Below are positions 18,512-49,377 of a DNA stretch of 64,000 nt, in pieces. The stretch comes from a virus. The stretch is from IMG/VR virus record IMGVR_UViG_3300021425_000014, positions 31,013 through 95,012 of that record, one strand, 5' to 3'. How positions within the stretch are numbered: the first letter of the stretch is position 1; every line of letters begins with the position of its first letter. A program made the position numbers and the translations under genes. Under the pieces are notes generated by a model. The model had not been told where the DNA came from. It searched no databases and saw only the letters and a list, made by a program, of their open reading frames with translations.

Positions 18512-18651
18512 ATTGTATTGCATCGTATTGAATTGTATTGTATTGCTTGGTATTGTATTAAGTTGTATTGTATTGTATTGCCGACACCCCAGCGCCCGAA
18601 CCCCAATACAATGTAATGCAATCAAACGCGGAACCCCAATACAATGCAATG
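18512..18651. repeat. TATTG/CAATA pentamer inverted-repeat array R1
   Basis: TATTG-phase pentamers run from 18512 to 18580, interrupted by single-base variants, then two CAATA-phase blocks (18604-18622, 18635-18651) that are their complement. The upstream 18380-18511 is AT-rich with no gene or repeat that I can see. It marks the left end of the cassette array. Confidence 0.85.
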
Positions 18652-19607: not shown

Positions 19608-19854
19608 TTGTATTGTATTGCCCCCCGCAAGGGGGGCTTTTTTCTGCGTGCCCATATATTGCATTGTATTGTATTGCCGTTCGCTCTCGCCTGAGATTGT
19701 ATTGCATTGTATTGTATTGGCAGGCCCCCCGGCTTCGCCGGGCTCCGAGCCCCGATCGCGGCACAATACAATATCATACAGTATAAATAAAATCCCCAAT
19801 ACAATACAATTACATACATCGTTACACCAGCCGCTGGCCCCAATACAATGCAAT
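19608..19854. repeat. TATTG/CAATA array R2
   Basis: Blocks of TATTG phase at 19608-19620, 19656-19677 and 19696-19719 and of CAATA phase at 19763-19773, 19795-19810 and 19840-19854. The two phases can pair to form long hairpins. An inverted TGATCTGG-like operator (CCAGATCTGAGCCAGATC) follows at 19865-19886. Confidence 0.85.
19620..19645 (+). terminator. Terminator of cassette 1
   Basis: CCCCCCGCAAGGGGGG stem followed by CTTTTTTCT. The same GCCCCC-GCAA-GGGGGC motif ends most cassettes. Confidence 0.8.
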
Positions 19855-21011: not shown

Positions 21012-21037
21012 TGGGGGCCCCAAATCGGGGCCCCTTA
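21012..21037 (+). terminator. Terminator after the DUF932 gene
   Basis: GGGGGCCCCAAATCGGGGCCCC followed by TTAC. The same palindrome recurs at 21237-21260 and, extended, at 21691-21717. Confidence 0.6.
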
Positions 21038-21104
21038 CCCGACACGTGGTATACTTACCATACCAGTTATACGATCGGCCCTTATGGGGCTTGTGTGAGG
21101 GCTT

Positions 21105-21221
21105 ATGCACCTTTTATTTTTACCGCTTGTTTTAGTTTTTTGTTTCGCCGTTTTACTTATTCAATTTATAGGCATGGCGATCATTCACGGGATCTCTGGC
21201 CGTCGCAGATGGTATAGTTAA
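21105..21221 (+). CDS. 38-residue single-span membrane peptide
   Basis: ATG 21105 opens a frame of 38 codons: a strongly hydrophobic stretch (LLFLPLVLVFCFAVLLIQFI), then MAIIHGIS and a basic end GRRWYS. GAGG precedes the start. The protein is a plain one-span membrane peptide. It lies in an otherwise gene-poor 270 bases between two palindromes. No family is recognised; small membrane peptides in phage early regions can be holin-like or inhibit host functions, unproven here. Confidence 0.45.
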   Translation: MHLLFLPLVLVFCFAVLLIQFIGMAIIHGISGRRRWYS

Positions 21222-21236
21222 TCTGTCGGAATCATC

Positions 21237-21260
21237 GGGGCCCCAAATCGGGGCCCCACA
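21237..21260 (+). terminator. GC-rich palindrome
   Basis: GGGGCCCCAAATCGGGGCCCC followed by ACAC. Second copy of the palindrome at 21012, here upstream of the 21277 gene. Confidence 0.4.
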
Positions 21261-21276
21261 CAGAAAGGATCATAAA

Positions 21277-21660
21277 ATGACAACTTCTCTAGACATGTTC
21301 AAGGTTCGCTGGGATAAGCAAGATACAGAATGGAACAGCAGCAACATAAACCCTATGGCTTGCCATGATTTCTTCGATAAATTCATTAATGATGTGGAGT
21401 TTCAAACTAGCATTAACTTGAATAACAACATTCAAATTTACAAAGATTATTACGTAAGGGGCAAATATAACTTTGTAAAAGTATTTCAATCGTTAATGCG
21501 GATCCTGAATACGTACCGCAAAAAAACGGGGGACACGACGATCACAACAATTGATGAAATTAAATTTATTGCCGATATGGTAGAAAATAACATATGGAAC
21601 AAACACCTAGTACCGTTAACCATTCAACGGGAATACATTAAGTCTATCTACTCCGAATAA
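21277..21660 (+). CDS. Small protein of unknown function
   Basis: 127 aa. RBS GAAAGGA lies ten bases before ATG 21277. The sequence is AT-rich, unlike the GC-richer cassette genes on both sides, and codes for a helical protein with NNNIQIYKDYYVRGKYNFVK and IDEIKFIADMVENNIW. No family is recognised. It sits between two GC-rich palindromes, of which the downstream one (21691-21717) is probably its terminator. Confidence 0.6.
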   Translation: MTTSLDMFKVRWDKQDTEWNSSNINPMACHDFFDKFINDVEFQTSINLNNNIQIYKDYYVRGKYNFVKVFQSLMRILNTYRKKTGDTTITTIDEIKFIADMVENNIWNKHLVPLTIQREYIKSIYSE

Positions 21661-21690
21661 TCACAGAGCGCAGAGCAGAGAAACAAGCAA

Positions 21691-21717
21691 AGGGGCCCCC
21701 CAAAATCGGGGGCCCTT
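21691..21717 (+). terminator. Terminator after the 21277 gene
   Basis: AGGGGCCCCCCAAAATCGGGGGCCCTT: a strong stem of eight to nine G-C pairs with a T-ended tail. Confidence 0.6.
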
Positions 21718-22040
21718 ACTGCATGAATAATATATATATTATAGATAATACCATAAGCTTATAAGGTATAAAGAATAACACGAAGGTACAAACACTCAAG
21801 GAAAGAAAATCAAGCCCCTTCTAGGGCATTCTAGGCCCCTCTATTGAGGCCCTTACCGATCCAGTTTTCAAGCCCCCATGAAAAACCCTGTATAAACCTT
21901 TTTATTTGTCTGCTAGGGGCCCTTGAATCAATACAAAATACCCCCTTTGGGGCATCCCCAGCCTAAAAATAGCACTATAAGCCCCTTTCGGGCAGATTCT
22001 TTAAAAAATCCAGCGCCGCATAAGAGGCTGTACCATATTA

Positions 22041-22660
22041 AATTGTATTGTTAAGCTCTATGTTTAGTTCTTTTACTCCTCTATATATAGTATGATATTG
22101 TATTGATACTATATATATATTATAAGTTATTATATTGTATTGGGGTTATTAGGCCCCGTTTTGTGTTGTATTGTATTGTAGACTCAGTTCGACACCTTTA
22201 GTACTTTCGCACAGCCGAGTGGAATACAATTCAATACTCTACAATGCTTATTTTAGTTCAAAGATATATATATATTATATTGTATTGTATGGGCCCCCGT
22301 TTTCTGTGGGGTAGTTTAGACTAAAAGTTTAGGCCAACTTTTCGGGGCCCCTTACTTTGTAGTTATTAAACATGTATATATATAATAAATAAAAACTTCG
22401 AGCCCTATATATAGGATCCCCCACTTTCTTTTAACAGCTTTATATATATAATACAATACAATACATTAGGTGCCCCGCTTTTTCACCCAACCGCGAGCGC
22501 CCTGTATTGTATCGCATCACATTGTATTACATTGTATTGTATTGCCTTGTATTGTATTGTATGACATTGTATTGTATTGGTGATGGGTGGCGGTGTGTCC
22601 TCAATACAATATAATGCAATGCGAGAGCGAGGGGCCCCGGCAATACAATGCAATCTAATG
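22041..22660. repeat. TATTG/CAATA array R3 in a gene-free stretch
   Basis: From 21718 to 22665 I find no gene. The DNA is AT-rich with dispersed TATTG blocks (22041-22050, 22094-22105, 22132-22142, 22161-22180, 22277-22290, 22503-22579) and CAATA blocks (22222-22245, 22450-22465, 22602-22620, 22641-22660). The left part has TA-rich runs (TATATATA) and GGGGCCCC-type fragments. Confidence 0.8.
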
Positions 22661-22665
22661 CGAGC

Positions 22666-22767
22666 CTGATCTGGCCTGATCTGACACAAAAGATTTTTCT
22701 TGCAATCTTTCGCCAGATATGTTGTAATTAGATTGTCGCACAAACGAGATGCCCAAACGGGCGGGAG
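22666..22767 (+). promoter_or_regulatory. Operator, promoter and leader of cassette 3
   Basis: CTGATCTGGCCTGATCTG (direct repeat, 10-base period) at 22666-22683; TTGCAA at 22700-22705, 17 bases, TGTAAT at 22723-22728; then AAACGAGATGCCCAAACGGGC with a small hairpin directly before the GGGAG ribosome site at 22763. Confidence 0.75.
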
Positions 22768-22775
22768 ACAAGACC

Positions 22776-23207
22776 TTGCATACAGAATTGACCAAAGACC
22801 AAATCGCTTTCTTGCGTAAGGCACGCCACATTTACTTCAGCGCACGTCGCAATGATGACGGTGTGTTTGTTGGCCACATCGAAGCAATCCAAGAAGATAA
22901 GGATAACCATTCCGTGGCGCGGATGGAAATCACAACACGCGCCATGATTAGTGGTGGGAACCGTGCTAACTGTTCGATCGCAATCGCTGGATTCTGTGAA
23001 GTCTGGCAAACTGTGTTAGCTTTCATCAAGTCTGGCGATTCGCTTGGCCTACGCTTTGAGGCCAACGGATTCCGCCCGTTGGATGAAAAGTACAATGACG
23101 TTAATCTTGATGTCTTGTATGTCAGTGTAGAACGGAATAATAAATTCTATAAATTCTTACTGGATGTTCACTTGACCAAGGAGGGTCATTACCGGATCAT
23201 CCAGTAA
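22776..23207 (+). CDS. Cassette 3 protein, unknown function
   Basis: 143 aa from TTG 22776. An ATG at 22749 is in frame, but it lies inside the leader hairpin before the ribosome site, so it is not the start. The protein has a basic helical N-terminal part and later alternating strands (LDVLYVSVERNNKFYKFLLD) with HYRIIQ at the end. No domain or family is recognised. It has a terminator and its own operator. Confidence 0.65.
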   Translation: MHTELTKDQIAFLRKARHIYFSARRNDDGVFVGHIEAIQEDKDNHSVARMEITTRAMISGGNRANCSIAIAGFCEVWQTVLAFIKSGDSLGLRFEANGFRPLDEKYNDVNLDVLYVSVERNNKFYKFLLDVHLTKEGHYRIIQ

Positions 23208-23215
23208 ACCACGGG

Positions 23216-23237
23216 GCCCCGCAAGGGGCCCTTTTAA
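23216..23237 (+). terminator. Terminator of cassette 3
   Basis: GGGGCCCCGCAAGGGGCCCTTTT with GCAA loop, the standard cassette terminator. Confidence 0.75.
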
Positions 23238-23249
23238 CTAAAGTTAATT

Positions 23250-23433
23250 ATATTGTATTGTATTGCATTAGTTCTTTTAATTGTATTGTATTGGCGTACT
23301 GGCCTCCGAGAAATCGGGGGCCTTTACGTTTCAATACAATTCAATACTATATATTAAAAACATTGTATTGTATTGTATGTGTAATTGGTTGGCCCCGAAA
23401 TCGCGGCCCTCAACCTACCAATACAATACTATA
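23250..23433. repeat. TATTG/CAATA array R4
   Basis: TATTG blocks at 23250-23270, 23281-23294 and 23361-23378, CAATA blocks at 23332-23345 and 23419-23433. Array between cassettes 3 and 4, with no gene between. Confidence 0.8.
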
Positions 23434-23477
23434 ATATATATACCAAATATTAAATAAAAATAGTTTCAAAAAAGGGC

Positions 23478-23548
23478 TTGCAATGATTCTCAGGATATGC
23501 TTTAATGGTATTGTCAGGTTATGGCCCCACCTTTGAGCGGGCCCGGAG
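23478..23548 (+). promoter_or_regulatory. Promoter and leader of cassette 4
   Basis: TTGCAA at 23478-23483, 17 bases, TTTAAT at 23501-23506. No TGATCTGG operator is seen. The leader ends with GGGCCCGGAG, the ribosome site of the TTG-started gene. Confidence 0.65.
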
Positions 23549-23557
23549 ATCGGAACC

Positions 23558-23749
23558 TTGCCTAACACAAAACTTATCAGCAAGCACGGAACCAAAGATC
23601 GCGTTTTCTGCCCCCGGTGTTTGAGAGAGTTGCAGAGTGATATCAAAAGCGATATAAGTTTTTGGTTTCATTGGGCAGATAATTATCACGCGGCTGGACA
23701 CCAAACGGAAGAGCCATGCCAGCGGTATGCAGATACTTGCGGAGATTAA
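23558..23749 (+). CDS. Cassette 4 small cysteine-rich protein
   Basis: 63 aa from TTG 23558, nine bases after GGAG. CPRCLREL near residue 18 and further Cys/His residues (WHWADNYHAAGH, CQRYADTC) could bind zinc. Otherwise unrecognised. It carries its own promoter and terminator and is the shortest coding cassette of the early part of the array. Confidence 0.6.
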   Translation: MPNTKLISKHGTKDRVFCPRCLRELQSDIKSDISFWFHWADNYHAAGHQTEEPCQRYADTCGD

Positions 23750-23752
23750 GCC

Positions 23753-23780
23753 CTGCCCCCTTCGGGGGGCTTTTTTATTA
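23753..23780 (+). terminator. Terminator of cassette 4
   Basis: CTGCCCCCTTCGGGGGGCTTTTTTATT, with a TTCG loop. Confidence 0.75.
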
Positions 23781-23788
23781 TGCCTATA

Positions 23789-23938
23789 TATATTGGATTG
23801 TATTGTATTGGCGATCGCCATCCGCCAAATCGCGAACACTCACTCTTTGAATACAATATAATATATTAATCTTATTGCATTGTATTGTATTAAGGCACCC
23901 CGATTCGCGGGCCCTTAAAACTTACCAATACAATACAC
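23789..23938. repeat. TATTG/CAATA array R5
   Basis: TATTG at 23789-23810 directly before the HIP1 octamer GCGATCGC (23811-23818), CAATA phase at 23850-23865, TATTG at 23873-23892, CAATA at 23926-23938. The phrase CACTCACTCTTTG before CAATA recurs at other arrays. Confidence 0.8.
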
Positions 23939-23955
23939 TATAATAATAAAACCAA

Positions 23956-24060
23956 AGATCTGGCTCAGATCAACATGACCTTGATCACTTGCGCCATGCC
24001 CCCCATCGTGCTACACTAAGGTTGTTCGGTTAAGCGATGGCGCTGGACGCGCCGGGAGGT
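23956..24060 (+). promoter_or_regulatory. Operator, promoter and leader of cassette 5
   Basis: AGATCTGGCTCAGATCAAC at 23956-23974; TTGCGC at 23989-23994, 17 bases, TACACT at 24012-24017; leader GCGATGGCGCTGGACGCGCC then GGGAGGT (24054-24060). Hairpin GGCGC / GCGCC just before the ribosome site. Confidence 0.75.
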
Positions 24061-24067
24061 AAACGCA

Positions 24068-24259
24068 ATGGGTGATTTAAACTGGCCTTTCTGGCACACG
24101 CAAGAAGAGTGTGACGAGATGAACAAAACGCTTGTGGATGATATGAAAAACAACATGAGCAAGATTCTGTGGAACAACGATCATGATACAGTTCAAGAAA
24201 TTCTTTCGAGATGGGAAGAAAACACAGGCATCGATCTTCGCCTTGAGCGCGATTGGTAA
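24068..24259 (+). CDS. Cassette 5 first protein, unknown function
   Basis: 63 aa. ATG 24068 lies eight bases after GGGAGGT. It is acidic with a helical central part (EECDEMNKTLVDDMKNN, EILSRWEENTG). It is co-transcribed with the next gene, whose ribosome site follows its stop. No family is recognised. Confidence 0.65.
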   Translation: MGDLNWPFWHTQEECDEMNKTLVDDMKNNMSKILWNNDHDTVQEILSRWEENTGIDLRLERDW

Positions 24260-24274
24260 AAAGGGAGGTAAGCA

Positions 24275-24559
24275 ATGCAGACCACGCAAGTTTATAACAA
24301 CGTCATCGAGGCTGTTGTGTGCAACAGCATGGCGTATGACTTTCAATTACCCATCGGCAAGTTCGATGGCGAAAGTTTACTCAAAAAGATCTGGTTCAAG
24401 ATTCAAAAGAAAGGGAATAGTAAAAGCCCTGACATCCAAATGCAGCGCGCCATGTGGCTAAGCCCTTGCAGGTTCGATGGAAGCGCTTTAAGGTCAATGG
24501 ATATGAAAGGGCAATGGTGGGACACAGGCATGGAGCTTGTAGCCAAGCGAGACATTTAA
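24275..24559 (+). CDS. Cassette 5 second protein, unknown function
   Basis: 94 aa, ATG 24275 with AAGGGAGGT upstream. Mostly hydrophilic, with basic segments (LKKIWFKIQKKGNSKSP) and MDMKGQWWDTGMELVAKRD at the end. This is the only clear two-gene cassette in the array. Unrecognised. Confidence 0.65.
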   Translation: MQTTQVYNNVIEAVVCNSMAYDFQLPIGKFDGESLLKKIWFKIQKKGNSKSPDIQMQRAMWLSPCRFDGSALRSMDMKGQWWDTGMELVAKRDI

Positions 24560-24561
24560 TA

Positions 24562-24759
24562 GTATTGTATTGCCCCCCGAGAGGGGGGCTTTCTCGTATG
24601 CCCCTGTGTATTGTATTGTATGGGCGGATACCCCTGCTTAATCAAAATTCAAAAAAACGCGCCGCCGCATATTCGATACAATTCAATTCAATGCGATGAA
24701 TGTATGGTATTGTATTGTATAAAAACGCGGGCACTCACTCTTTGCCAATACAATACAAA
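24562..24759. repeat. TATTG/CAATA array R6
   Basis: TATTG at 24562-24572, 24606-24621, 24706-24720; CAATA at 24674-24693 and 24745-24759. The phrase CGGGCACTCACTCTTTG before CAATA is shared with R5 (and in variants with R11 and R12). Confidence 0.8.
24572..24596 (+). terminator. Terminator of cassette 5
   Basis: GCCCCCCGAGAGGGGGGCTTTCTCG directly behind a TATTG repeat. Confidence 0.75.
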
Positions 24760-24760
24760 C

Positions 24761-24849
24761 AGATCTGACTCTGATCTAAACACTTGCGTCATTAATATAT
24801 ATCTGCTAGAATTAAAGAGTAAAGGCAAGGGCTCAAGCGAGCCGGAAAG
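24761..24849 (+). promoter_or_regulatory. Operator, promoter and leader of cassette 6
   Basis: AGATCTGACTCTGATCTAAA at 24761-24780; TTGCGT at 24784-24789, 17 bases, TAGAAT at 24807-24812; leader AAGAGTAAAGGCAAGGGCTC with hairpin GGCTC/GAGCC before GGAAAG. Confidence 0.7.
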
Positions 24850-24857
24850 TGAAGGTT

Positions 24858-25088
24858 ATGATCCCTTTTGCTGAGATTGAATTGTGGGATGACTACGGCC
24901 ACAAGAAGTGGATTGAATATGACAATATTGATGATGTCATATGGGGCCATAAATGGGATGACTCGGACGATCATGAGTGTGAGAGATCGGGTAACGTAGA
25001 AATCCACAAGCTGGGGCCCAAGGATCATTATTATTGTATTATCATGGTTAAGAAATACGGGATGCCCAAACTCGAACTCCAACTCTAA
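24858..25088 (+). CDS. Cassette 6 protein, unknown function
   Basis: 76 aa from ATG 24858, with GGAAAG eight bases upstream; a GTG at 24849 in frame is an alternative but touches that site. Acidic, with tryptophans and aromatic residues (ELWDDYGHKKWIEYDNIDDV, WGHKWDDSDDHECE). The end YYCIIMVKKYGMPKLELQL is basic/hydrophobic. Unrecognised. Confidence 0.6.
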   Translation: MIPFAEIELWDDYGHKKWIEYDNIDDVIWGHKWDDSDDHECERSGNVEIHKLGPKDHYYCIIMVKKYGMPKLELQL

Positions 25089-25099
25089 CTTAACAGCTT

Positions 25100-25279
25100 T
25101 ATATTGTATTGCCCCTCTGGCTCTGGCTGGCGGGGCACTTTTGCGCTCAGGCCCGCCTCGCTGTATTGCATTGTATTGTATGCCCCCGTCGTATTGCATT
25201 GTATTGTATTGGTGGCCATCGACCCACGGCAATACAATTCAATTCAATGTAAAGGTTGTATGGTATTGTATTGTATTGG
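25100..25279. repeat. TATTG/CAATA array R7
   Basis: TATTG at 25100-25111, 25162-25181, 25191-25211, 25258-25279; CAATA at 25230-25250. Followed by GATCTGGCCTGA and the cassette 7 promoter. Confidence 0.8.
25110..25143 (+). terminator. Probable terminator of cassette 6
   Basis: GCCCC, a long loop, GGGGC then ACTTTT. Weaker than the other cassette terminators. Confidence 0.45.
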
Positions 25280-25294
25280 TCGGATCCGGGGCCC

Positions 25295-25396
25295 GATCTG
25301 GCCTGAAAAATGTTTTCAAAAACTATTGACTTGGCCATGGACGGCATGTTACTCTTGAGGAGTCAACACAAGCGATGGCGCTGACGCGCCGGGAGG
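25295..25396 (+). promoter_or_regulatory. Operator, promoter and leader of cassette 7
   Basis: GATCTGGCCTGA at 25295-25306 (single operator half); TTGACT at 25326-25331, 17 bases, TTACTC at 25349-25354; leader GCGATGGCGCTGACGCGCC then GGGAGG (25391-25396). This -10 box is the poorest match of the series. Confidence 0.65.
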
Positions 25397-25401
25397 CTCA
25401 A

Positions 25402-25770
25402 ATGCTCAAGAACATGATCGCCACGGATGCCCTGGGTGGGTTGCAGGTCAAGGTGTACCGCAACCTTCACAAGAAGTGCCTCAGCGTGTGGCATGCGGGC
25501 TATGTCGTGGCCCATGTTGACTCCATCACGCTGGATGGCGTGCTTTTCAAGGTGAACGAAGCTGGACGCCAACGCGTGTTGCGTGAGAAGAAAAAGAACG
25601 TCCACGCTTTCGTGACGGGCACAGTCACAGGCGTTAACGCGCCCCCACGGGGGGCTGTTCCCGTGTCCTACAACCCTTATAAGGGGGCTTCTTTCACCCT
25701 GCCTGATGGCCAGGCCATTATGGCGGCCGGAACGGTCACGGTGACGACCAGGGGGGCCTTCGTAGACTGA
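25402..25770 (+). CDS. Cassette 7 protein, unknown function
   Basis: 122 aa. The start ATG 25402 sits five bases after GGGAGG. An in-frame ATG at 25375 begins inside the leader (reading MALTRREAQ) and is a trap for gene finders. The protein is basic with a central stretch LGGLQVKVYRNLHKKCLSVW, and a C-terminal half with TVTGVNAPPRGAVPV. GC-rich codons distinguish it from the replication genes. Unrecognised. Confidence 0.65.
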   Translation: MLKNMIATDALGGLQVKVYRNLHKKCLSVWHAGYVVAHVDSITLDGVLFKVNEAGRQRVLREKKKNVHAFVTGTVTGVNAPPRGAVPVSYNPYKGASFTLPDGQAIMAAGTVTVTTRGAFVD

Positions 25771-25798
25771 GGGCCCCGGCTCTCTTTCCCCATAGGGA

Positions 25799-25865
25799 TC
25801 AATACAATGCAATGCAGTCCAATACAATGCAATTCAATGCAACGGTTATATTGTATTGTATTGTA
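25799..25865. repeat. CAATA/TATTG array R8
   Basis: CAATA units at 25799-25841, then TATTG units to 25865 with a short spacer; a compact hairpin. The sequence before it (25771-25798) is GC-rich with no clear terminator. Confidence 0.8.
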
Positions 25866-25884
25866 TGGCCCCCATCCGGGGGGG

Positions 25885-25992
25885 CTGATCTGGGGCTGAT
25901 CTGGGCTGAAAAATCTTTTTTGAAATCGTTGACATCTCGCTTGAAACTTGCTACTATTAAAGAGTAGTCGTTATGGCGCTGAGCGCCGGGAG
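25885..25992 (+). promoter_or_regulatory. Operator, promoter and leader of cassette 8
   Basis: CTGATCTGGGGCTGATCTGG at 25885-25904 (period 11); TTGACA at 25929-25934, 17 bases, TACTAT at 25952-25957; leader AAAGAGTAGTCGTTATGGCG with GGCGCTGAGCGCC hairpin before GGGAGG. Confidence 0.8.
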
Positions 25993-25998
25993 GTCAAA

Positions 25999-26232
25999 GT
26001 GAAGGGCATCGACATCATTCGGGAATCGGACAACGGCGGAGAAATCATCGGATTTCGCATCAGCGCCAAGCACGGCGGATTCGGGTTTGACGTACCGCTT
26101 GTAGACTTAGTCAACGCTGAGGTGTTCACGGAAGAGAAGCGCGAGGCGCTGCTCAAGCGATACCAGGCCTACTTGGCCGATATCGTCAAAACCTGGGAGC
26201 AGCCGGGCACGGCTAATCGCTGGGATGTTTAG
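25999..26232 (+). CDS. Cassette 8 protein, member of an array paralog trio
   Basis: 77 aa from GTG 25999 after GGGAGG. Sequence contains KGIDIIRESDNGGEIIGFRI and FGFDVPLVDLVNAEVF. The pattern of a beta hairpin followed by V.DLVNA and a helix is shared with the cassettes at 29345 and 29924, so these are probably divergent paralogs. Function unknown. Confidence 0.65.
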   Translation: MKGIDIIRESDNGGEIIGFRISAKHGGFGFDVPLVDLVNAEVFTEEKREALLKRYQAYLADIVKTWEQPGTANRWDV

Positions 26233-26233
26233 C

Positions 26234-26264
26234 CCAGGGCCCCCCGAAAGGGGGGCTTTTTTCG
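26234..26264 (+). terminator. Terminator of cassette 8
   Basis: GGGCCCCCCGAAAGGGGGGCTTTTTTC. Confidence 0.8.
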
Positions 26265-26274
26265 TGTGGCTTAT

Positions 26275-26329
26275 CAATACAATACAATTCAATACAACGC
26301 GGGGGGAATATATTGCATTGTATTGTATG
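26275..26329. repeat. CAATA/TATTG array R9, cleanest hairpin
   Basis: Left arm ATACAATACAATTCAATA, right arm the near-complement with one mismatch (TATTGCATTGTATTGTAT) and a short spacer holding GCGGGGGG. This is the clearest example of an imperfect inverted repeat in the array. Confidence 0.85.
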
Positions 26330-26389
26330 GGCGGGATCGCCGTGCGCCATTCGGCCTCATCGGGCCAGCAATGCGGTGCGCAACGCAGC

Positions 26390-26490
26390 ATCGCATTTAA
26401 GGGCCCTGTGAGGGCCATGAAGGGGCTTATAGGTATCCGGGAGGGTGATTGTACCCTGAACGCCATCAGGGGCCTTTACGGGCCTTGTGG
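26390..26490. other. Dispersed structured element, copy A
   Basis: About 100 bases with the core AGGGTGATTGTACCCT (an inverted repeat AGGGT/ACCCT) preceded by GGCCCTGTGAGGGCC and followed by GGGGCCTTTACGGGCC. Four more copies are at 27.94, 29.69, 30.47 and 37.06 kb. It lies directly upstream of the operator of cassette 9. Confidence 0.6.
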
Positions 26491-26494
26491 TGGC

Positions 26495-26590
26495 TTGATC
26501 TGGAATAAAAAGTTTTTCTTGACATCCAATGATGGGGTTGATATGATGAAAGAGTCAGGCAAACGAGATGGCGCTGACGCGCCGGGAGGT
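26495..26590 (+). promoter_or_regulatory. Operator, promoter and leader of cassette 9
   Basis: TTGATCTGG at 26495-26503 (single motif); TTGACA at 26519-26524, 17 bases, TATGAT at 26542-26547: a near-perfect sigma70 promoter; leader AAAGAGTCAGGCAAACGAG with the GGCGCTGACGCGCC hairpin before GGGAGGT. Confidence 0.8.
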
Positions 26591-26594
26591 CGAA

Positions 26595-26756
26595 ATGATG
26601 GTAAGCTTTCAGGAAGAAGAAAAGGGATTCTTGGTAGCGGTGACTGAAGACGATTTCGTCTTCATTCCCGTTCAGAACGGGAACCGCGTAGCCGCCTTCG
26701 AAGAGGCGATCGAGCAGCTTAACGAATGGTTCTATGCATCACTTAAATACAAGTGA
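26595..26756 (+). CDS. Cassette 9 protein, unknown function
   Basis: 53 aa. ATG 26595 lies four bases after GGGAGGT (MM start; the second ATG is equally possible). An in-frame ATG at 26568 (reading MALTRREVEM) is inside the leader and not the start. Acidic protein with FLVAVTEDDFVFIPVQNG and an end FEEAIEQLNEWFYASL. Unrecognised. Confidence 0.6.
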   Translation: MMVSFQEEEKGFLVAVTEDDFVFIPVQNGNRVAAFEEAIEQLNEWFYASLKYK

Positions 26757-26759
26757 TGC

Positions 26760-26788
26760 GAGGCCCCCGAAAGGGGGCTTTTTTCGTG
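26760..26788 (+). terminator. Terminator of cassette 9
   Basis: GAGGCCCCCGAAAGGGGGCTTTTTTCG. Confidence 0.8.
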
Positions 26789-26796
26789 CCAATCAT

Positions 26797-26900
26797 CAAT
26801 ACAATACAATTCTATACAATCACTGCATCGCATTGTATTGTATGGGGAAGAATCGGGGGGCCATACCTACTTCCCTTTGAATCACCAATACAATACAGTT
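26797..26900. repeat. CAATA/TATTG array R10
   Basis: CAATA at 26797-26820, TATTG at 26828-26844, CAATA at 26886-26897. The phrase TTTGAATCACCAATACAATAC leads to the next operator. Confidence 0.8.
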
Positions 26901-26910
26901 TAATATATGA

Positions 26911-27025
26911 CCTGATCTGGCCTCAAAATATTTTTAAAATAGTTTCTGAAAAGGGGTTTACATTCCCAGGTGAAACGGGTATGATATTAATGTAAGGGTT
27001 AAGCGACACCCCTGAGTCGCGGAGA
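26911..27025 (+). promoter_or_regulatory. Operator, promoter and leader of cassette 10
   Basis: CCTGATCTGGCCT at 26911-26923; TTTACA at 26957-26962, 17 bases, TATGAT at 26980-26985; leader with GCGACACCCCTGAGTCGC hairpin before GGAG. This leader hairpin differs in sequence from the GGCGC type but keeps the position. Confidence 0.75.
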
Positions 27026-27035
27026 ACAGACCACC

Positions 27036-27272
27036 ATGGCTATCTTCAATGTTGTAATGGTTAAGGATCCGATGATGGCCCCCGTGCTCGTTGAGCAGCA
27101 CAAAGTCGAGAGCCTGAAAGAGGCTCGTAAGATCCTCAGCCAGTGGGCTGAAGATGGGGACAAAATAGTAGCCCTCAAGAAGGCGCCGCTTCCCTCAGGG
27201 CGCCACGTGACGCCACTGGTTATACAGACGATGGAAGAGGATTCCGATATCTTCGGACAATACATAGATTAA
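27036..27272 (+). CDS. Cassette 10 protein, unknown function
   Basis: 78 aa, ATG 27036. The N-terminal half MAIFNVVMVKDPMMAPVLVE is strand-like, followed by a helical KVESLKEARKILSQWAEDGD. The end is acidic. Unrecognised. It keeps the array pattern of one promoter and one gene. Confidence 0.65.
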   Translation: MAIFNVVMVKDPMMAPVLVEQHKVESLKEARKILSQWAEDGDKIVALKKAPLPSGRHVTPLVIQTMEEDSDIFGQYID

Positions 27273-27273
27273 G

Positions 27274-27303
27274 CGAGGGGCCCCGCGAGGGGCCCTTTTT
27301 TTT
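27274..27303 (+). terminator. Terminator of cassette 10
   Basis: GAGGGGCCCCGCGAGGGGCCCTTTTTT. Confidence 0.8.
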
Positions 27304-27313
27304 ATGCCCCTGT

Positions 27314-27465
27314 GTATATTGCATTGTATTGCCAGGGCGATCGCCCATCGGGACTTATCAATACAATTCAATGCAACCAATGTATTGCATTGTATTGGAC
27401 GGGGGCCCCGGCGAGCTTGCGCCAAATCGCGCGCCCTTACTCTTTGCAATACAATACAATCTAAT
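27314..27465. repeat. TATTG/CAATA array R11
   Basis: TATTG at 27314-27331 followed by HIP1 GCGATCGC at 27337-27344, CAATA at 27359-27375, TATTG at 27381-27398, CAATA at 27446-27465. Shares CTTTGCAATACAATACAAT with R12 and R5. Confidence 0.8.
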
Positions 27466-27470
27466 TCATA

Positions 27471-27596
27471 CCTGATCTGACCTTGATCTGACACAAGTTG
27501 ATTTATTTGACATCCTTCCCGATAGTTGTTATTATAAAAGAGTCAAGGCAAGCGGGCCCGACGCCCGCCAGATGAACCCCAGGGGTTCGGGAGGTA
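27471..27596 (+). promoter_or_regulatory. Operator, promoter and double leader hairpin of cassette 11
   Basis: CCTGATCTGACCTTGATCTG at 27471-27490 (period 11); TTGACA at 27507-27512, 17 bases, TATTAT at 27530-27535; the leader has two hairpins, GCGGGC/GCCCGC and GAACCCCAGGGGTTC, before GGGAGGT. Confidence 0.8.
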
Positions 27597-27599
27597 AAC

Positions 27600-27821
27600 A
27601 TGACCATCACCATTGCCGTTGTTATCGCTGTGCTTACATTTGCGCTGGGCATGTCGCTCGGCGTGAGCCTTCAGCAATCATACGGTAATCGTACCGAAAG
27701 AATTTTATATGAGGCGTACCGCCAGGCGCGGGATGAGGCCCTTCACCTTGAAAGGAAAATCGCCACGGGCGAAAGTTTTAGGAGAAACGTCATCCGCTCA
27801 ATAAAGAAAATCTCAGACTAA
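27600..27821 (+). CDS. Cassette 11 small membrane protein
   Basis: 73 aa. The first 25 residues are one hydrophobic span (ITIAVVIAVLTFALGMSL), then a basic, helical tail (NRTERILYEAYRQARDEALH, SFRRNVIRSIKKISD). It would insert with the N terminus in the membrane and the tail in the cytoplasm. No family is recognised. Confidence 0.65.
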   Translation: MTITIAVVIAVLTFALGMSLGVSLQQSYGNRTERILYEAYRQARDEALHLERKIATGESFRRNVIRSIKKISD

Positions 27822-27824
27822 CAC

Positions 27825-27855
27825 AGGGCCCCCGAAAGGGGGCTCTTTTTTTATG
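27825..27855 (+). terminator. Terminator of cassette 11
   Basis: GGGCCCCCGAAAGGGGGCTCTTTTTTT. Confidence 0.8.
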
Positions 27856-27863
27856 CCTGTTAA

Positions 27864-28170
27864 TATATTGCATTGCATTGTATTGTTAGCCCCCCTTTTC
27901 TTCGTGCGTTCGAAACATCCGATAAGCCCCACAGCGTAGCACCCTTTTAAAGCGTGCTGTGAGCCCGTTAAACGCGTTTCAGGGGGGTGGGTAGGGTGAT
28001 TGTACCTTAGAACAATTTAAACGCCTTTAAAGCCCGTATGTTTAATCAATGCGATCGCCCATAGAAGATCAATACAATTCAATTCAATGCAGCCGTGGTA
28101 TCGCATTGTATTGTATGGACACAGGGCAGGGGCAAAAGCGGGGCCCGTCACTTTTTGCAATACAATATAA
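27864..28170. repeat. Array R12 with structured element copy B inside
   Basis: TATTG at 27864-27886; CAATA at 28070-28090; TATTG at 28101-28117; CAATA at 28158-28170. Between them, 27935-28040 holds the AGGGTGATTGTACC element (core at 27992-28007) and HIP1 GCGATCGC is at 28051-28058. Confidence 0.75.
27935..28040. other. Dispersed structured element, copy B
   Basis: GTTAAACGCGTTTC, then GTGGGTAGGGTGATTGTACC, then ACGCCTTTAAAGCCCG. The AGGGT...ACCTT arm pair keeps pairing by a G-U change compared with copy A. Confidence 0.55.
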
Positions 28171-28184
28171 TTATATATAAAAGG

Positions 28185-28276
28185 GTTGATCTGGGTTGAT
28201 CTGGTTTAGTTGACATCATAAGCCTGGTTTGATATGATTAAAGAGTAAAGGTTATGGCCTGATGGCCGGGAGGTTC
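28185..28276 (+). promoter_or_regulatory. Operator, promoter and leader of cassette 12
   Basis: GTTGATCTGGGTTGATCTGG at 28185-28204 (period 10), almost touching TTGACA at 28210-28215; 17 bases; TATGAT at 28233-28238; leader GGTTATGGCCTGATGGCC hairpin before GGGAGGT. Confidence 0.8.
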
Positions 28277-28278
28277 TA

Positions 28279-28533
28279 ATGCGCGAGTACGTGGGCAATG
28301 TCGAGGATCTGTGGGAAAACCCTTTCGATGGCTATTGCCGTGCGCTTGACCGTTATGACCGCTTTGCGGTCTATGAACGGGACACGGACGGGTATGGATT
28401 CCCGATCTATCATTGCTGGTCAAGCAAGGAGCAGGAAACCATATGGTTCACAAGAGAGGACGCCGCCATGCGCTGGTGTCAAAACATGATGGTTGCCCTA
28501 CGACTTGAGGGGCATTATATCTGGATGGTTTAA
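28279..28533 (+). CDS. Cassette 12 protein, unknown function
   Basis: 84 aa, ATG 28279 after GGGAGGT. Rich in Trp, Tyr and charged residues: GYCRALDRYDRFAVYERDTD and HCWSSKEQETIWFTREDAAM. The end is basic-hydrophobic (LRLEGHYIWMV). No family is recognised. A small alpha/beta protein is plausible. Confidence 0.65.
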   Translation: MREYVGNVEDLWENPFDGYCRALDRYDRFAVYERDTDGYGFPIYHCWSSKEQETIWFTREDAAMRWCQNMMVALRLEGHYIWMV

Positions 28534-28536
28534 CAG

Positions 28537-28565
28537 GGGGCCCCGCAAGGGGCCTCTTTTTTTAT
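28537..28565 (+). terminator. Terminator of cassette 12
   Basis: GGGGGCCCCGCAAGGGGCCTCTTTTTTT. Confidence 0.8.
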
Positions 28566-30228: not shown

Positions 30229-30408
30229 GCATTGTATTGTATTGCCCCCGGCATATAGCCCCTCCCCATCAATGCCCCTGTTAATCAGAAAAATAAATGT
30301 TTCACGCGCCGTATATTATAAAAATAATCGTTCGGTGGCCCCGAATGGCGGCCAATACAATTCAACACAATTCAATTCAATTCTAAAACATTTTATTGCA
30401 TTGTATTG
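30229..30408. repeat. TATTG/CAATA array R16
   Basis: TATTG at 30229-30244, CAATA at 30353-30383 and TATTG at 30395-30408. Further small blocks are at 30658-30675 and 30804-30826. No convincing gene lies in 30212-32024. Confidence 0.75.
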
Positions 30409-30590: not shown

Positions 30591-30868
30591 TGTTTTAAAT
30601 TTAACTCACATCAGGCTTGTTCAACTTGACGTTGAATTGACACAGCCTGAAAAATCCCATACAATACAATTCAACACATGGGGCCATGATCATGAGTTTT
30701 CCCCATGTATAGGATCCCCAACTTTCGACCAATAGCTTTAAAAACCCTTTCCCGCTTTCGATCGCCAGCCCCGGCGCACAGGGCGAAAAAAGTCGATTTT
30801 TGCTGTATTGTATTGTATTGTATTGTTAACCTAACCTTACCCTCATCTTAACCTGTTCTTAACCTTCG

Positions 30869-31280
30869 ATGTCAACTAAGAGATCTTTAAGAGATCGTTA
30901 AATTTAGGTTAAATTTTGGTGTAAAATATTTTACCATATTTCGTCGAAAATGTCAATTAAAAGATCTTTAAAAGATCTTAAAATTTAGGTTAAATTTTGC
31001 TACCACGAAAATCCAGATCTGTCAACTAAATTTAGGTTAAAGATCTTTAAATTATGGTTAAATTTTACGATCACAGATCTCGTCGAAAGTCAATTAAATT
31101 TGAGTTAAAGATCTTTAAGTTTAGGTTAAGTTTTACGATCAGATTTTTCGTCGAAAGTCAATTAAAAATAAGTTAAAGATCTTAAAGGTTTGGTTAAATT
31201 TTACAGGCACATTTTTCACCGAAAGTCAATTAAATTCAGGTTAAAGATCTTTAAGATTTGATTAAACTTTTTTCGTCGAA
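30869..31280. repeat. GATC-rich iteron field, candidate origin of replication
   Basis: About six imperfect units of 56-78 bases. A typical unit reads CGTCGAAAGTCAATTAAATT, then GTTAAAGATCTTTAA, then GGTTAAATTTTACGATCA. AGATCTTTAA (palindromic AAAGATCTTT) recurs in every unit and more than ten GATC sites fall in 410 bases. It is preceded by TTAACC-type repeats (30826-30868). AT-rich direct repeats with short inverted repeats, in a gene-free region next to a strand switch in coding direction, are typical of replication origins. Confidence 0.7.
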
Positions 31281-43871: not shown

Positions 43872-44612
43872 ATGGCAGTTAAAATCTCTAGTTTGCCATT
43901 AGCTAATAAGCTAAACGGTGACGAAATTATTCCAGTAATTCAAGGTGGTAGAACAAGGCGCTCTAGAATTAAAGACGTAAATACAGAGAAAATTGAGACT
44001 AGAAAGTCTAATTATACATTGTCAGAATTAGACGGAACTGCCATTTGCGATGCATCTGCTGAATCTTTTTCTATTTTATTACCACAGGCTGATCTATTTA
44101 GGGGTAAAATTTACGAATTTAAAAAGATTGACACAAGTGAAAATACTGTAACAATTTCAAGCCTAGCTGGCGAAACAATTGATGGAGCTACTGGATTAGT
44201 TCTAGAAAATGAAAACGACTCATACACCTTAAGGTCTAGCGGCTCTGGCTGGATTGTAACATCTGAAAAAACTCGCGCAACCAGAACTGCTCCAGAATAT
44301 GCTTTTATGCATAGAGAAATTACCGCCGCAAATATCGAAGCAAATATTCCTAGTCAAAAAAAGGGAAGAATACTTAAAGGTTATTCTAAACTAATAATAG
44401 ATGTAGATGTTATTGAGCCTGGCTCATATGTTCAACTTTTGCCTTTAACCTGGAATCCTCTTCTTGAGAAATATATTCCGGGTGCAGTGTCTGCCAGAAT
44501 TCGGGAAAGTAAACGGTTTATTTTGGATATTCAAAGTCCCGATGATGTTTATCTAGTACCTGTAGATGTTCAAGGCAAGGTTTCAGTTGTGGTTGGAGGC
44601 TATAATCCATGA
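43872..44612 (+). CDS. Virion protein with the shared fibre N-terminal module
   Basis: 246 aa. Begins AVKISSLPLANKLNGDEIIP then VIQGGRTRRSRIKDV, a module (ISSLP...G-DE-x-VP...Q-G...T) shared with the genes at 46635 and 61842 and found at the N terminus of many phage tail-fibre proteins. A beta-rich body (VLENENDSYTLRSSGSGWIV) follows. Likely a head- or tail-decoration or fibre-type protein, perhaps a baseplate attachment. Location before the sheath gene is unusual for tail fibres. Confidence 0.6.
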   Translation: MAVKISSLPLANKLNGDEIIPVIQGGRTRRSRIKDVNTEKIETRKSNYTLSELDGTAICDASAESFSILLPQADLFRGKIYEFKKIDTSENTVTISSLAGETIDGATGLVLENENDSYTLRSSGSGWIVTSEKTRATRTAPEYAFMHREITAANIEANIPSQKKGRILKGYSKLIIDVDVIEPGSYVQLLPLTWNPLLEKYIPGAVSARIRESKRFILDIQSPDDVYLVPVDVQGKVSVVVGGYNP

Positions 44613-44890
44613 CTTGGGACACATTTGGATTTAGTGGCACAGATGGTGTCAGTTTAACTGCTGACGCTGTTCGCGTTAATGAAGAAGTTATAACCCTAGA
44701 TTTTGTAGACTTTCAACTGCAAACAATCTATCCAATTTATCCAGGCAGTTTAAAGGTTTATATAAATGGGGTGAATCAATCACCGGAATTAGATTTCCAA
44801 GAAAATGGTGACGGGAAGTCATTTACTTGGATCTCTGAAGAGGCAATTACGGTAGATGACAGCGTGTTGGTGGATTACATTATTGCTTAA
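44609..44890 (+). CDS. Small beta-rich virion protein
   Basis: 93 aa, start overlapping the previous stop. Contains YPGSLKVYINGVNQSPELDF and VDDSVLVDYII, which resembles the C-terminal domain of the next gene (RPILAINGVIQELGAGASDD, EEGDTAVIWYRAAL). Both likely form a small adhesin or fibre-tip domain. Confidence 0.55.
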   Translation: MTWDTFGFSGTDGVSLTADAVRVNEEVITLDFVDFQLQTIYPIYPGSLKVYINGVNQSPELDFQENGDGKSFTWISEEAITVDDSVLVDYIIA

Positions 44891-44912: not shown

Positions 44913-46544
44913 ATGCAAAAGATTAATCTAAAGAATCAGGGTAAGCTTGGTTCAATTGAGTTTGAACTACTTAGCTCTGGTGCGGTAGAGGCGATTACCT
45001 CTGGTCTAGTTGCCGATCTATCGTTTGTATCCGGTGCCGTAACTGGCAATGTTTCTGACATCTCTGCTGAGCAGTCTGCCCGTGAAGCCGCTGATGCGGT
45101 CATCTCCGGTGCAGTAACTGGCCTAGTCGCAGACGTAGGTGAACTAGACGGTCGTTTAGACACTCTCGAAGGTGGCTCTGGTGTAGTTGGTTCAGTAGCA
45201 AAATCCTTGGCCGATGCTAAGGCATATACCGATCAAAAGGTATCAGACCTAGTTGATTCAGCACCCGAAGTTCTAGACACCCTAAACGAACTAGCCGCAG
45301 CGCTAGGTGATGACCCCGCATTCGCAACCACGATTGCTGGACAAATCGGCGCAGTTTCTGGTTCAGTTGCTTCAGTTGCTGGCGATCTAGCAAACGAAAC
45401 CTCTGCCCGTGAAGCAGCAGATACTTTCATTTCTGGTGCAGTAACCGGCGTAGTAGCAGATCTTGCAAATGAGACTTCAGCGCGCGAAGCGGCTGATACC
45501 TTCATTTCCGGCGCTGTTACCGGCGTTGTTGCTGACCTAGCGAATGAAACTTCTGCTCGCGAAGCAGCGGACACGTTCATCTCAGGTGCCGTAACTGGCG
45601 TAGTTGCCGATCTAGCTAACGAGACTTCTGCTCGCGAAGCCGCAGATACCTTTATCTCTGGTGCCGTGACTGGTGTCGTAGCTGATCTAGCCAACGAAAC
45701 CTCCGCTCGTCAAGCCGCTGATACTGCACTAGGCAACGATGTTGCTTATGTATCAGGCGTAGTAACTGGCGCAGTTGCCGACATTCTATCACTAGATGGT
45801 CGCCTAGACACTCTAGAGGGTGGTTCCGGCGTTGTTGGTTCAGTCGCTAAGTCACTAGCTGATGCTAAGACTTATACCGATGAAAAGGTTGCTGCTCTAG
45901 TAGATTCAGCGCCTGCCGTTCTAGATACCCTAAATGAGTTGGCCGCTGCTCTAGGTGACGACCCTGCGTTCGCCACCACGATCGCTGGTCAAATCGGTGC
46001 AGTATCTGGCGATGTCGCTTCTGAGACTTCAGCCCGCGAAGCTGCTGATACCTTCATCTCTGGTGCTGTAACTGGTGTTGTAGCGGATCTTGCGAACGAA
46101 ACTTCAGCAAGAGAAGCTGCCGACACCTTTATTTCAGGTGCAGTAACCGGAGTTGTTGCCGATCTAGCTAATGAAACCTCTGCTCGCCAGGCCGCAGATA
46201 CCTCAATCTCTGGCGCAGTAACAGGTGCAGTAGCTGATCTATCAGCACTAACTTCTGCATTCAACAGTTTCCGTGCTTCAGTTGGTACTTTCGTAGACGA
46301 AGAAACCGTAACTTTCGATGGTTCCGGCGAATACGTCCTAGCGTCTGCACCTTCTGGCCTAGTATCAGGCTCACGCCCAATTCTAGCAATCAACGGTGTC
46401 ATCCAAGAGCTAGGCGCTGGCGCGTCTGATGACTTCCAAATGGTTGACGATGGTACAGGCGTAGTCCGTATGGTCAAGCTAAATGCTGGTTTCGTCCTCG
46501 AAGAAGGCGACACCGCAGTAATCTGGTATCGCGCCGCTCTATAA
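44913..46544 (+). CDS. Repeat-rich fibre/adhesin-like virion protein
   Basis: 543 aa. Two large duplications: a region LDGRLDTLEGGSGVVGSVAK plus 60 residues repeats twice (residues about 80-140 and 295-355), and a 25-residue unit NETSAREAADTFISGAVTGV repeats in tandem (four copies at 45393-45692, more at 46020-46210). The repeats are helix-forming, with heptad-like hydrophobics, and likely make a trimeric coiled fibre. The C terminus carries the small adhesin-type module seen in the preceding gene. The tandem protein units are identical, but their codons are not (see findings). Confidence 0.7.
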   Translation: MQKINLKNQGKLGSIEFELLSSGAVEAITSGLVADLSFVSGAVTGNVSDISAEQSAREAADAVISGAVTGLVADVGELDGRLDTLEGGSGVVGSVAKSLADAKAYTDQKVSDLVDSAPEVLDTLNELAAALGDDPAFATTIAGQIGAVSGSVASVAGDLANETSAREAADTFISGAVTGVVADLANETSAREAADTFISGAVTGVVADLANETSAREAADTFISGAVTGVVADLANETSAREAADTFISGAVTGVVADLANETSARQAADTALGNDVAYVSGVVTGAVADILSLDGRLDTLEGGSGVVGSVAKSLADAKTYTDEKVAALVDSAPAVLDTLNELAAALGDDPAFATTIAGQIGAVSGDVASETSAREAADTFISGAVTGVVADLANETSAREAADTFISGAVTGVVADLANETSARQAADTSISGAVTGAVADLSALTSAFNSFRASVGTFVDEETVTFDGSGEYVLASAPSGLVSGSRPILAINGVIQELGAGASDDFQMVDDGTGVVRMVKLNAGFVLEEGDTAVIWYRAAL

Positions 46545-47907: not shown

Positions 47908-49377
47908 ATGGCAATCGTTTCTAACTTTGATAATTTATTTACGCCAGACGTAAACCTTCGCGAAGCTTCTCCTTCACCATCAATTAGAGCGGCTGCCGTT
48001 GGGATCGTTGGCGTCGTAGGCCAAGCAACCCGTGGCCCTGTCGGCGTTCCGACTCGTGTCACCTCACTAAATGATTGGGTTCGTAAATTCGGCGGATATG
48101 ACGCTGCTCAAAATGGCGAAGGTTATATGTTTATGTATAATCTATTCCGCTCTGGTGCATCAACCGTTGACTTCGTTCGCGTTACCGATGGTAATGAAAC
48201 CGCCGCAAGCGCCGCTGTTGACGGTTCAGTGTTTGAATTAATGCAGCCCGGTTCATATGGCAACAGTGTTTCAGTAGTAATTAGCGCTAACAGCGTAACT
48301 GGCTTCGTTGACATTCTATTCAGAAATGGCTCTGAAACATATGAATATAAAGCAGTAACCTTTACCGATGCTCAAAATTCTCGCTATATTCAAACTGTTC
48401 TAGATAATGCTGAAGAGGTTGATGGTTTCGTAAAGATTACAACTGTCGGAGCATCTAATCCGGCAACTGGAACAATTCTGTTTACTGGAGGTTCCAACGG
48501 AACTGTTCAGGGAACATCTCTATTGGACTCTGCATTCGTTGGTCAGAATACGGGTAATGGTCTAACTGGCTTAGTTGCACTCGAAGCAGATGATGATGTT
48601 GAAATCGTTGTTTGCACTCGCACTAATCTAACCCTAGCTAATGCCCTCAAGGATCACGTCTCTCTATCAAGCGTATCCCCAAGAATGGCAGTAGCTGCTC
48701 CGGCATCTGGAACAACCGTTGACACGCTAGCAACGACAATGCAATCATTTAATAGCGATCGCGTTGTTATGACTTATCCATTCCTTCAAATCCTTAATCC
48801 TTTCAACAACAAGAAGGAATACCACGCACCAACTGCATTCTATGCTGGATTGTTATCAACCTTATCCTATCATATCTCCCCCTCTCGCAATGTAGTTAAT
48901 GGCGTAATCGGAACCGAACGCGCTCTAACTCGCGGTGAAGTTGATACCCTATCACGCAATCGCGTATCCCCAATCACTCTATTGAGTGGCTTCGGATTTG
49001 TGGTACGCAACGGTTATAACACTTCAAATCTACCCTCGCTAGCCAATGTCACTCGTCGTCGCGCAGTTAACTTCTTCGCCAAGACGTTTGAAACCGGCTT
49101 GCAGCAGTTCGTATCAAGGCCACATACTCCTGCTCTACGCAGTGATGTCGTTTCAGTTCTAAGTGGCCTACTACAGAACGAAGTAAACTTGGGCAAGATT
49201 GGTCAGGTAAACGGTGGAACTGCATTCGCGGTAAAATGCGATGCTCAAAATAACCCTGATTCCGTCGTGCAGCAAGGTCAATTAATTGTTGACATTCAGA
49301 TCTCACTCTGGAGCCCTGCTGACTTCATCAATGTCACGCTTGATGCCTCAGAAGCCAAGGTAATCAGTATCGGCTAA
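47908..49377 (+). CDS. Tail sheath protein
   Basis: 489 aa. PDVNLREASPSPSIRAAAVG, then GVVGQATRGPVGVPTRVTSL, matches the N-terminal signature of myovirus tail sheaths (GxVG-x-AxxGP-x-x-PxxV), and the C-terminal VVQQGQLIVDIQISLWSPAD resembles the sheath end. It contracts around the tube at DNA delivery and proves that the phage has a contractile tail. Confidence 0.9.
   Translation: MAIVSNFDNLFTPDVNLREASPSPSIRAAAVGIVGVVGQATRGPVGVPTRVTSLNDWVRKFGGYDAAQNGEGYMFMYNLFRSGASTVDFVRVTDGNETAASAAVDGSVFELMQPGSYGNSVSVVISANSVTGFVDILFRNGSETYEYKAVTFTDAQNSRYIQTVLDNAEEVDGFVKITTVGASNPATGTILFTGGSNGTVQGTSLLDSAFVGQNTGNGLTGLVALEADDDVEIVVCTRTNLTLANALKDHVSLSSVSPRMAVAAPASGTTVDTLATTMQSFNSDRVVMTYPFLQILNPFNNKKEYHAPTAFYAGLLSTLSYHISPSRNVVNGVIGTERALTRGEVDTLSRNRVSPITLLSGFGFVVRNGYNTSNLPSLANVTRRRAVNFFAKTFETGLQQFVSRPHTPALRSDVVSVLSGLLQNEVNLGKIGQVNGGTAFAVKCDAQNNPDSVVQQGQLIVDIQISLWSPADFINVTLDASEAKVISIG

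Follow-up and report, generated by a model that had tools for sequence, protein, structure and literature searches.

Silent-site saturation among protein-identical repeats in a phage tail-fibre-like gene

Introduction

Polyubiquitin genes carry tandem repeats that are identical in protein and differ at many synonymous positions. Purifying selection with birth-and-death evolution (Nei et al. 2000) has been set against slow concerted evolution (Sharp and Li 1987) to account for them, a debate taken up in PMC10457151. For tandem repeats within one protein, treated as evolving under relaxed or positive selection, Persi, Wolf and Koonin (2016, PMC5120217) report a dN/dS typically above that between orthologs. 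Protein repeats written in different codons have also been engineered, by the codon scrambling or diversification of repetitive genes described in PMC10094428 and PMC12365220. Coiled-coil-like or collagen-like stalk repeats of phage tail fibres are a further comparison; a search of the literature by title and abstract opening found no direct phage precedent for the pattern reported here, which does not imply that none exists.

The window analysed here, a stretch of 64,000 nucleotides, comprises bases 31013-95012 of a 95,012-base IMG/VR virus record and contains a tail-fibre-like gene with 25-residue repeats that are identical in protein and differ in most codons. The gene resembles those of other phage tail-fibre stalks in its family, its position in the tail module, its repeated stalk and its silent saturation, found in 68 of 182 surveyed repeat genes, and differs in holding the longest perfect repeat among the saturated genes, at 84 aa. 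Unlike ubiquitin, which is conserved across species, the repeat unit occurs in this phage alone among the phages sampled, and only in the core of the gene is it uniform; no homology is implied by the comparison. The array dN/dS is close to zero, the opposite of the tendency reported by Persi, Wolf and Koonin, and its codons match chance, whereas those of the engineered genes were deliberately designed.

Results

All of the repeats lie in a single open reading frame that matches tail-fibre profiles, the best PHROG matches including phrog_1197 (E 1.4e-41) and phrog_2631 (E 7.2e-24); the best matching stretches shown fall mostly within a module shared among fibres. The surrounding tail module is of the contractile-tail type, with head-tail adaptor and neck genes upstream of the fibre gene and the tail sheath downstream (sheath at 47908, major head protein at 40533), and the gene order around the fibre is the same in the syntenic relative L022. 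The features of the gene are as follows.

44913..46544, plus strand: tail-fibre-like gene (ORF) of 543 aa that holds all the repeats; PHROG tail and tail fibre families
44982..45056, plus strand: strongly diverged N-terminal unit, 11/25
45057..45131, plus strand: diverged N-terminal unit, 18/25
45144..45374, plus strand: 77-residue segment, copy 1, an internal repeat with a module common to many phage fibres
45384..45458, plus strand: identical 25-aa unit 1, in the frame starting at D
45459..45533, plus strand: identical 25-aa unit 2, same frame
45534..45608, plus strand: identical 25-aa unit 3, same frame
45609..45683, plus strand: identical 25-aa unit 4, same frame
45684..45758, plus strand: half-diverged unit, 15/25
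45792..46022, plus strand: 77-residue segment, copy 2, an internal repeat
46011..46085, plus strand: near-identical unit, 23/25
46086..46160, plus strand: fifth identical 25-aa unit, apart from the four
46161..46235, plus strand: near-identical unit, 22/25
46230..46541, plus strand: C-terminal domain, kept in the syntenic ortholog of L022 (by alignment)

A preliminary description, made from the letters alone, had reported protein-identical repeats with scrambled codons at 45393-45692, and these are real: 45393..45692 encodes four in-frame tandem 25-aa units, NETSAREAADTFISGAVTGVVADLA, with zero amino-acid differences and 14-19 of 25 codons differing per pair. In the frame of that description the six pairs differ at 19, 15, 16, 17, 17 and 14 of 25 codons, and in the frame from D (45384) at 17, 15, 15, 18, 17 and 15; its count of 19 of 25 for units 1 and 2 was exact and is the highest among the six pairs. 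Differing codons among the protein-identical units are synonymous without exception, and across the five identical units the NG86 pS spans 0.72-0.91, with a JC dS of 2.44 or undefined. The feature is larger than first described, extending to the fifth identical unit, the near-identical and diverged units, and the repeated 77-residue segment. Judged from the protein, the common ancestry of the units is certain; those outside the identical set carry 2-14 amino-acid differences at codons that are about equally random. The two 77-residue copies are offset by 216 residues and share 92% amino-acid identity, and a module search with this segment found a relative encoded in 586 of 600 stretches among the matches listed.

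Several sequence peculiarities accompany the gene. Leucine is written as CTA in 34 of 43 cases in the fibre gene versus 133 of 470 in the other structural genes, and arginine as AGA in 1 of 15 versus 143 of 283, a bias that suggests distinct codon selection or another origin for the gene. The small gene that precedes the fibre (44609-44890) looks by eye like the fibre C-terminal domain, sharing an INGV-Q motif and ending similarly. The antisense ORFs 45233..45694 and 45989..46513 are likewise repetitive in appearance, which we regard as geometry.

Codon identity between repeats was evaluated against a null in which synonymous codons are shuffled within the gene. Observed and expected identities were 0.353 and 0.411 for the four units (P=0.10), 0.356 and 0.410 for the five identical units (P=0.052), and 0.400 and 0.399 for all ten units (P 0.54), and adjacent identical units stood at 0.333 versus 0.408 (z -1.4). 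Drawing codons at random from the gene's own usage gave P 0.062 for four units and 0.024 for five; a null built from the codon usage of the other structural genes gave P 0.40 and 0.37. Over all internal repeats of the fibre gene, codon identity was 0.406 against a shuffle value of 0.408 (z -0.13), with no ancestry signal detectable in the codons of these repeats, and the longest shared run was 17 nt against 20.9 expected (P 0.26). The 77-residue segment was near-random at its 71 compared identical positions (0.493 versus 0.451, z 0.77). Codon usage inside the repeats did not differ from that outside them (chi2 23.0, 27 df, P 0.68). The residual pairing seen between unit 4 and those at 46011 and 46161 was considered and rejected, as it lay within chance (maximum-pair P 0.37). 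The copies are thus not near-identical in DNA as in a recently duplicated repeat, the four-unit codon identity of 0.353 being at the random-synonym expectation, which bears out the earlier statement that recent duplication does not explain the array; nor is the unit DNA homogenised as in concerted evolution by conversion (0.406 versus 0.408).

The closest syntenic relatives found were L022 and L024, with sheaths 70% identical to that of the window, and L023 (sheath 60%); L022 and L024 show zero differences across the 15,980 bases of L024. The L022 ortholog keeps the ends of the fibre, lacks the 25-aa unit of the window and carries its own 18-aa repeats between those ends. Neighbouring units of the L022 arrays are more alike in codons than expected (0.521 versus 0.420, z 3.2), and this excess fades to z 1.3, 0.45 and 0.0 at two, three and four units, the pattern expected from stepwise duplication and silent drift; small positive values (z 0.6-1.6) reappear at longer unit distances. 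One adjacent pair shares 15 of 18 codons and other neighbouring pairs share 3-13. A single array there combines scrambled units with an identical stretch of 59 nt. L023 is without such a gene at the fibre locus and has a collagen-like fibre upstream instead, which returned nothing when queried against the phage collection. Its z of -3.7 was entertained as evidence of avoidance and set aside, since it occurs at one of many offsets and another offset gives z +3.0. With the 125-aa array alone as query, no relative was found among viral contigs, and a second search returned just three weak phage matches, all below 60% identity; a genome-contig scan added one distant Acinetobacter protein. The phage collections searched yielded no close relative that carries these units.

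To place the array among other repeat genes, we surveyed a deduplicated set of ORFs whose proteins contain exact internal repeats of at least 15 residues. The survey kept 182 of 201 genes (104 of 117 under a stricter complexity filter) and excluded the window's own record (L001), ORFs with non-ACGT letters, overlapping shorter ORFs and homologous duplicates; its ORFs were taken around fibre and collagen-like queries and are not all proven fibres. Of the 182, 68 were equally saturated, with codon identity indistinguishable from or below that of random synonyms (z < 1.64). Short-read assemblies disfavour DNA-identical arrays, and IMG/VR contigs are mostly such assemblies; the saturated share may be inflated by short-read assembly. 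Exact-repeat codon identity was continuous from 0.12 to 1.0 across 104 genes. Exact repeats of at least 40 residues occurred in 26 genes, four of them saturated, and the 84-aa perfect repeat of the window gene was followed by 49, 47 and 42 aa among the saturated. The preliminary description had taken relatives with repeats near-identical in DNA as a sign that the scrambling is ancient drift, and this is largely what emerged: related fibre genes, L022 included, range from identical to saturated.

Saturated genes centred on z of about 0, and shared runs were not shortened (Wilcoxon P 0.22-0.72, all genes). In a first set, 5 of the 112 genes passing a looser complexity filter fell below z -1.64, and 5 of the 104 passing the stricter filter had z <= -1.7 (L039, L036, L023, L032 and L118); an independent later set contained 0 of 70 with z < -1.64 and two with z < -1. 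We dropped anti-identity as a general claim, the low tail of the first set being absent from the 70 later genes. A run-breaking test conditional on codon identity showed no effect in the surveyed repeat genes. Four orthologous 592-aa fibres with scrambled repeats (L032, L034, L035 and L036) were also noted, and L032 has the lowest z of the genes tabulated with it (repeat codon identity 0.306 versus 0.483 expected, z -3.5).

Silent rates were then evaluated in 51 ortholog comparisons of repeat-bearing genes, tallied by hand, which share loci and are not independent. The ratio of dS at repeat to non-repeat positions had a median of 0.95 and exceeded 1 in 24 of the 51, giving no overall rise of the synonymous rate within repeats; dN/dS in repeats fell below the non-repeat value in 39 of 51, the repeat positions having been picked by similarity. 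Against the trend, L032 2911..5109 compared with L035 showed a higher silent rate in repeats (1.31 versus 0.80), as did L069 (dS ratio 4.9) and L082 (ratio 3.0). In the 592-aa family, orthologs are 0.80-0.94 codon-alike at identical residues and within-gene repeats 0.20-0.61, so that these repeats are older than the split and still match in protein.

The strength of the constraint was gauged with a star-tree simulation in which five units drift independently under varied omega and varied silent changes per codon per branch. At omega 0.005, five identical proteins arose with probability 0.077 when each codon took one silent change per branch, and 0.003 when it took two; at omega 0.01 the values were 0.017 and 0, and at omega 0.02 with at least one silent change identical proteins arose in 0 of 300 simulations. 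The simulation needs omega near 0.005 or below; measured against L022 by NG86, a different estimator, omega was 0.098 (major head protein), 0.112 (sheath) and 0.082 (gene 49445). The contrast remains large, yet is softened by the five units having been noticed for being identical. Either the core of the stalk is under exceptional constraint, or silent sites in this array changed faster than neutral. For repeat genes in general the survey and ortholog tests favour exceptional constraint; their bearing on the array itself is indirect, as the search produced no close relative sharing its units.

Discussion

Taken together, a model for the array emerges that we consider likely: the units arose by duplication, purifying selection kept the stalk uniform, and silent sites drifted to saturation, a course resembling that of polyubiquitin. 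Tandem duplication would create units with identical DNA, selection on the protein would hold each core unit, and silent positions would drift ordinarily until codon choice is random. Probably, a regular and presumably trimeric coiled-coil stalk needs matching repeats, which would be the reason for the constraint. The 25-aa unit is Ala-rich, its length presumably fits hendecad plus heptad spacing (25 = 11 + 14), and an AlphaFold2 monomer model built with two sequences predicts helix over most of the repeats at low confidence (pLDDT 45.7, pTM 0.22), from which we infer a putative coiled-coil stalk; how old the array is, and why it is constrained, are likewise inferred. Protein identity, silent saturation, the adjoining new and old units of L022 and silent change that is not faster in the repeats of other fibre families as a whole are observed. 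Old repeats with uniform protein and saturated silent sites look common in phage fibre genes, this array being the most extreme found. Against drift, the constraint required for five identical units is extreme and uneven, other units having 2-14 amino-acid differences at similarly random codons, and a unit that is not common to L022 is not obviously a long-fixed sequence.

The main rival is selection for DNA dissimilarity, in which identical copies are lost by recombination or slippage, silently differing lineages persist, and scrambling outpaces neutral drift. It would give zero amino-acid changes without extreme constraint, and a slight deficit points its way: the five identical units fall just below random (0.356 versus 0.410), the adjacent ones lowest, and a few other genes lie below random, such as L032 (z -3.5) and the collagen-like gene of L023 (z -3.7). 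Yet all ten units sit at the null (P 0.54), the shared run is not significantly short (P 0.26), saturated genes centre near z 0 without any shortening of shared runs, the low tail was absent from the independent set (0/70), the ortholog silent rate in repeats is not raised overall, and the L023 deviation is offset-specific. We hold this rival to be unlikely, there being no convincing sign of silent sites less alike than chance. Of the preliminary reading, selection on the protein and the exclusion of recent duplication stand, and the avoidance of DNA identity is not supported, codon identity being at random expectation and not clearly below it (P 0.10, 0.052, 0.54). A natural counterpart of codon scrambling, in which phages with uniform stalks spell their copies differently since DNA-alike copies get deleted in replication, and silent changes fix faster than neutral until homology is too low for recombination, seems to us quite unlikely.

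Fibre genes are often mosaic, and in the syntenic ortholog the conserved ends enclose different repeats, as would be left by horizontal acquisition from a phage lineage that has not been sampled or by recombination of several diverged donors with the same protein unit. The array has no relative in viral contigs beyond the three weak phage matches, however, and its codon usage equals that of the rest of the gene; we regard either route as decidedly doubtful. The two further suggestions of the preliminary description, that a retroelement diversified the array or that a targeting defence drove the codon change, are highly improbable. No observation speaks for a defence of this kind. The PF00078 reverse transcriptase profile had 0 matches in the 95,012-base record, which may be a fragment (controls positive 3/14), so a diversity-generating retroelement target with a reverse transcriptase in its genome is not indicated there. 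Such retroelements put errors at template adenines (PMC12875486) and would alter the protein, unlike the purely synonymous changes among the identical units. Broken or collapsed identical arrays in short reads may enrich contigs for scrambled ones, but collapse yields identical copies, not differing ones, the units are in frame within one ORF, and the ortholog in two other contigs has a comparable pattern; a metagenome assembly artefact is barely credible.

The array cleanly sets protein-level apart from DNA-level homogeneity. If drift alone is at work, the fibre-stalk constraint is unusually strict and exceeds that on the head and sheath proteins of the same phage; if drift is not all, the array would be natural evidence for repeat deletion shaping silent sites. 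The survey base rate of 68/182 is a yardstick for judging such arrays.

Other features of the window

The palindrome GGGGCCCC occurs 11 times versus 0.42 expected, all at 21.0-28.5 kb (window 21014-28544) and partly as 13-base tandem pairs. Arrays of 5-base units related to ATTGT/TGTAT/CAATA lie at 18512-18580, 19696-19719, 22503-22579, 25800-25842, 30353-30383 and 30804-30826. Ahead of ORF 31386, positions 30870-31280 hold 68-base repeats (3.7 copies, 82% matches) assembled from AAGATCTTTAA and GGTTAAATTTTACGA-like pieces, an arrangement reminiscent of iterons or an origin. On the minus strand, 32759-35876 matches nucleotide-sugar epimerase, DNA methyltransferase and dTDP-4-dehydrorhamnose 3,5-epimerase families.
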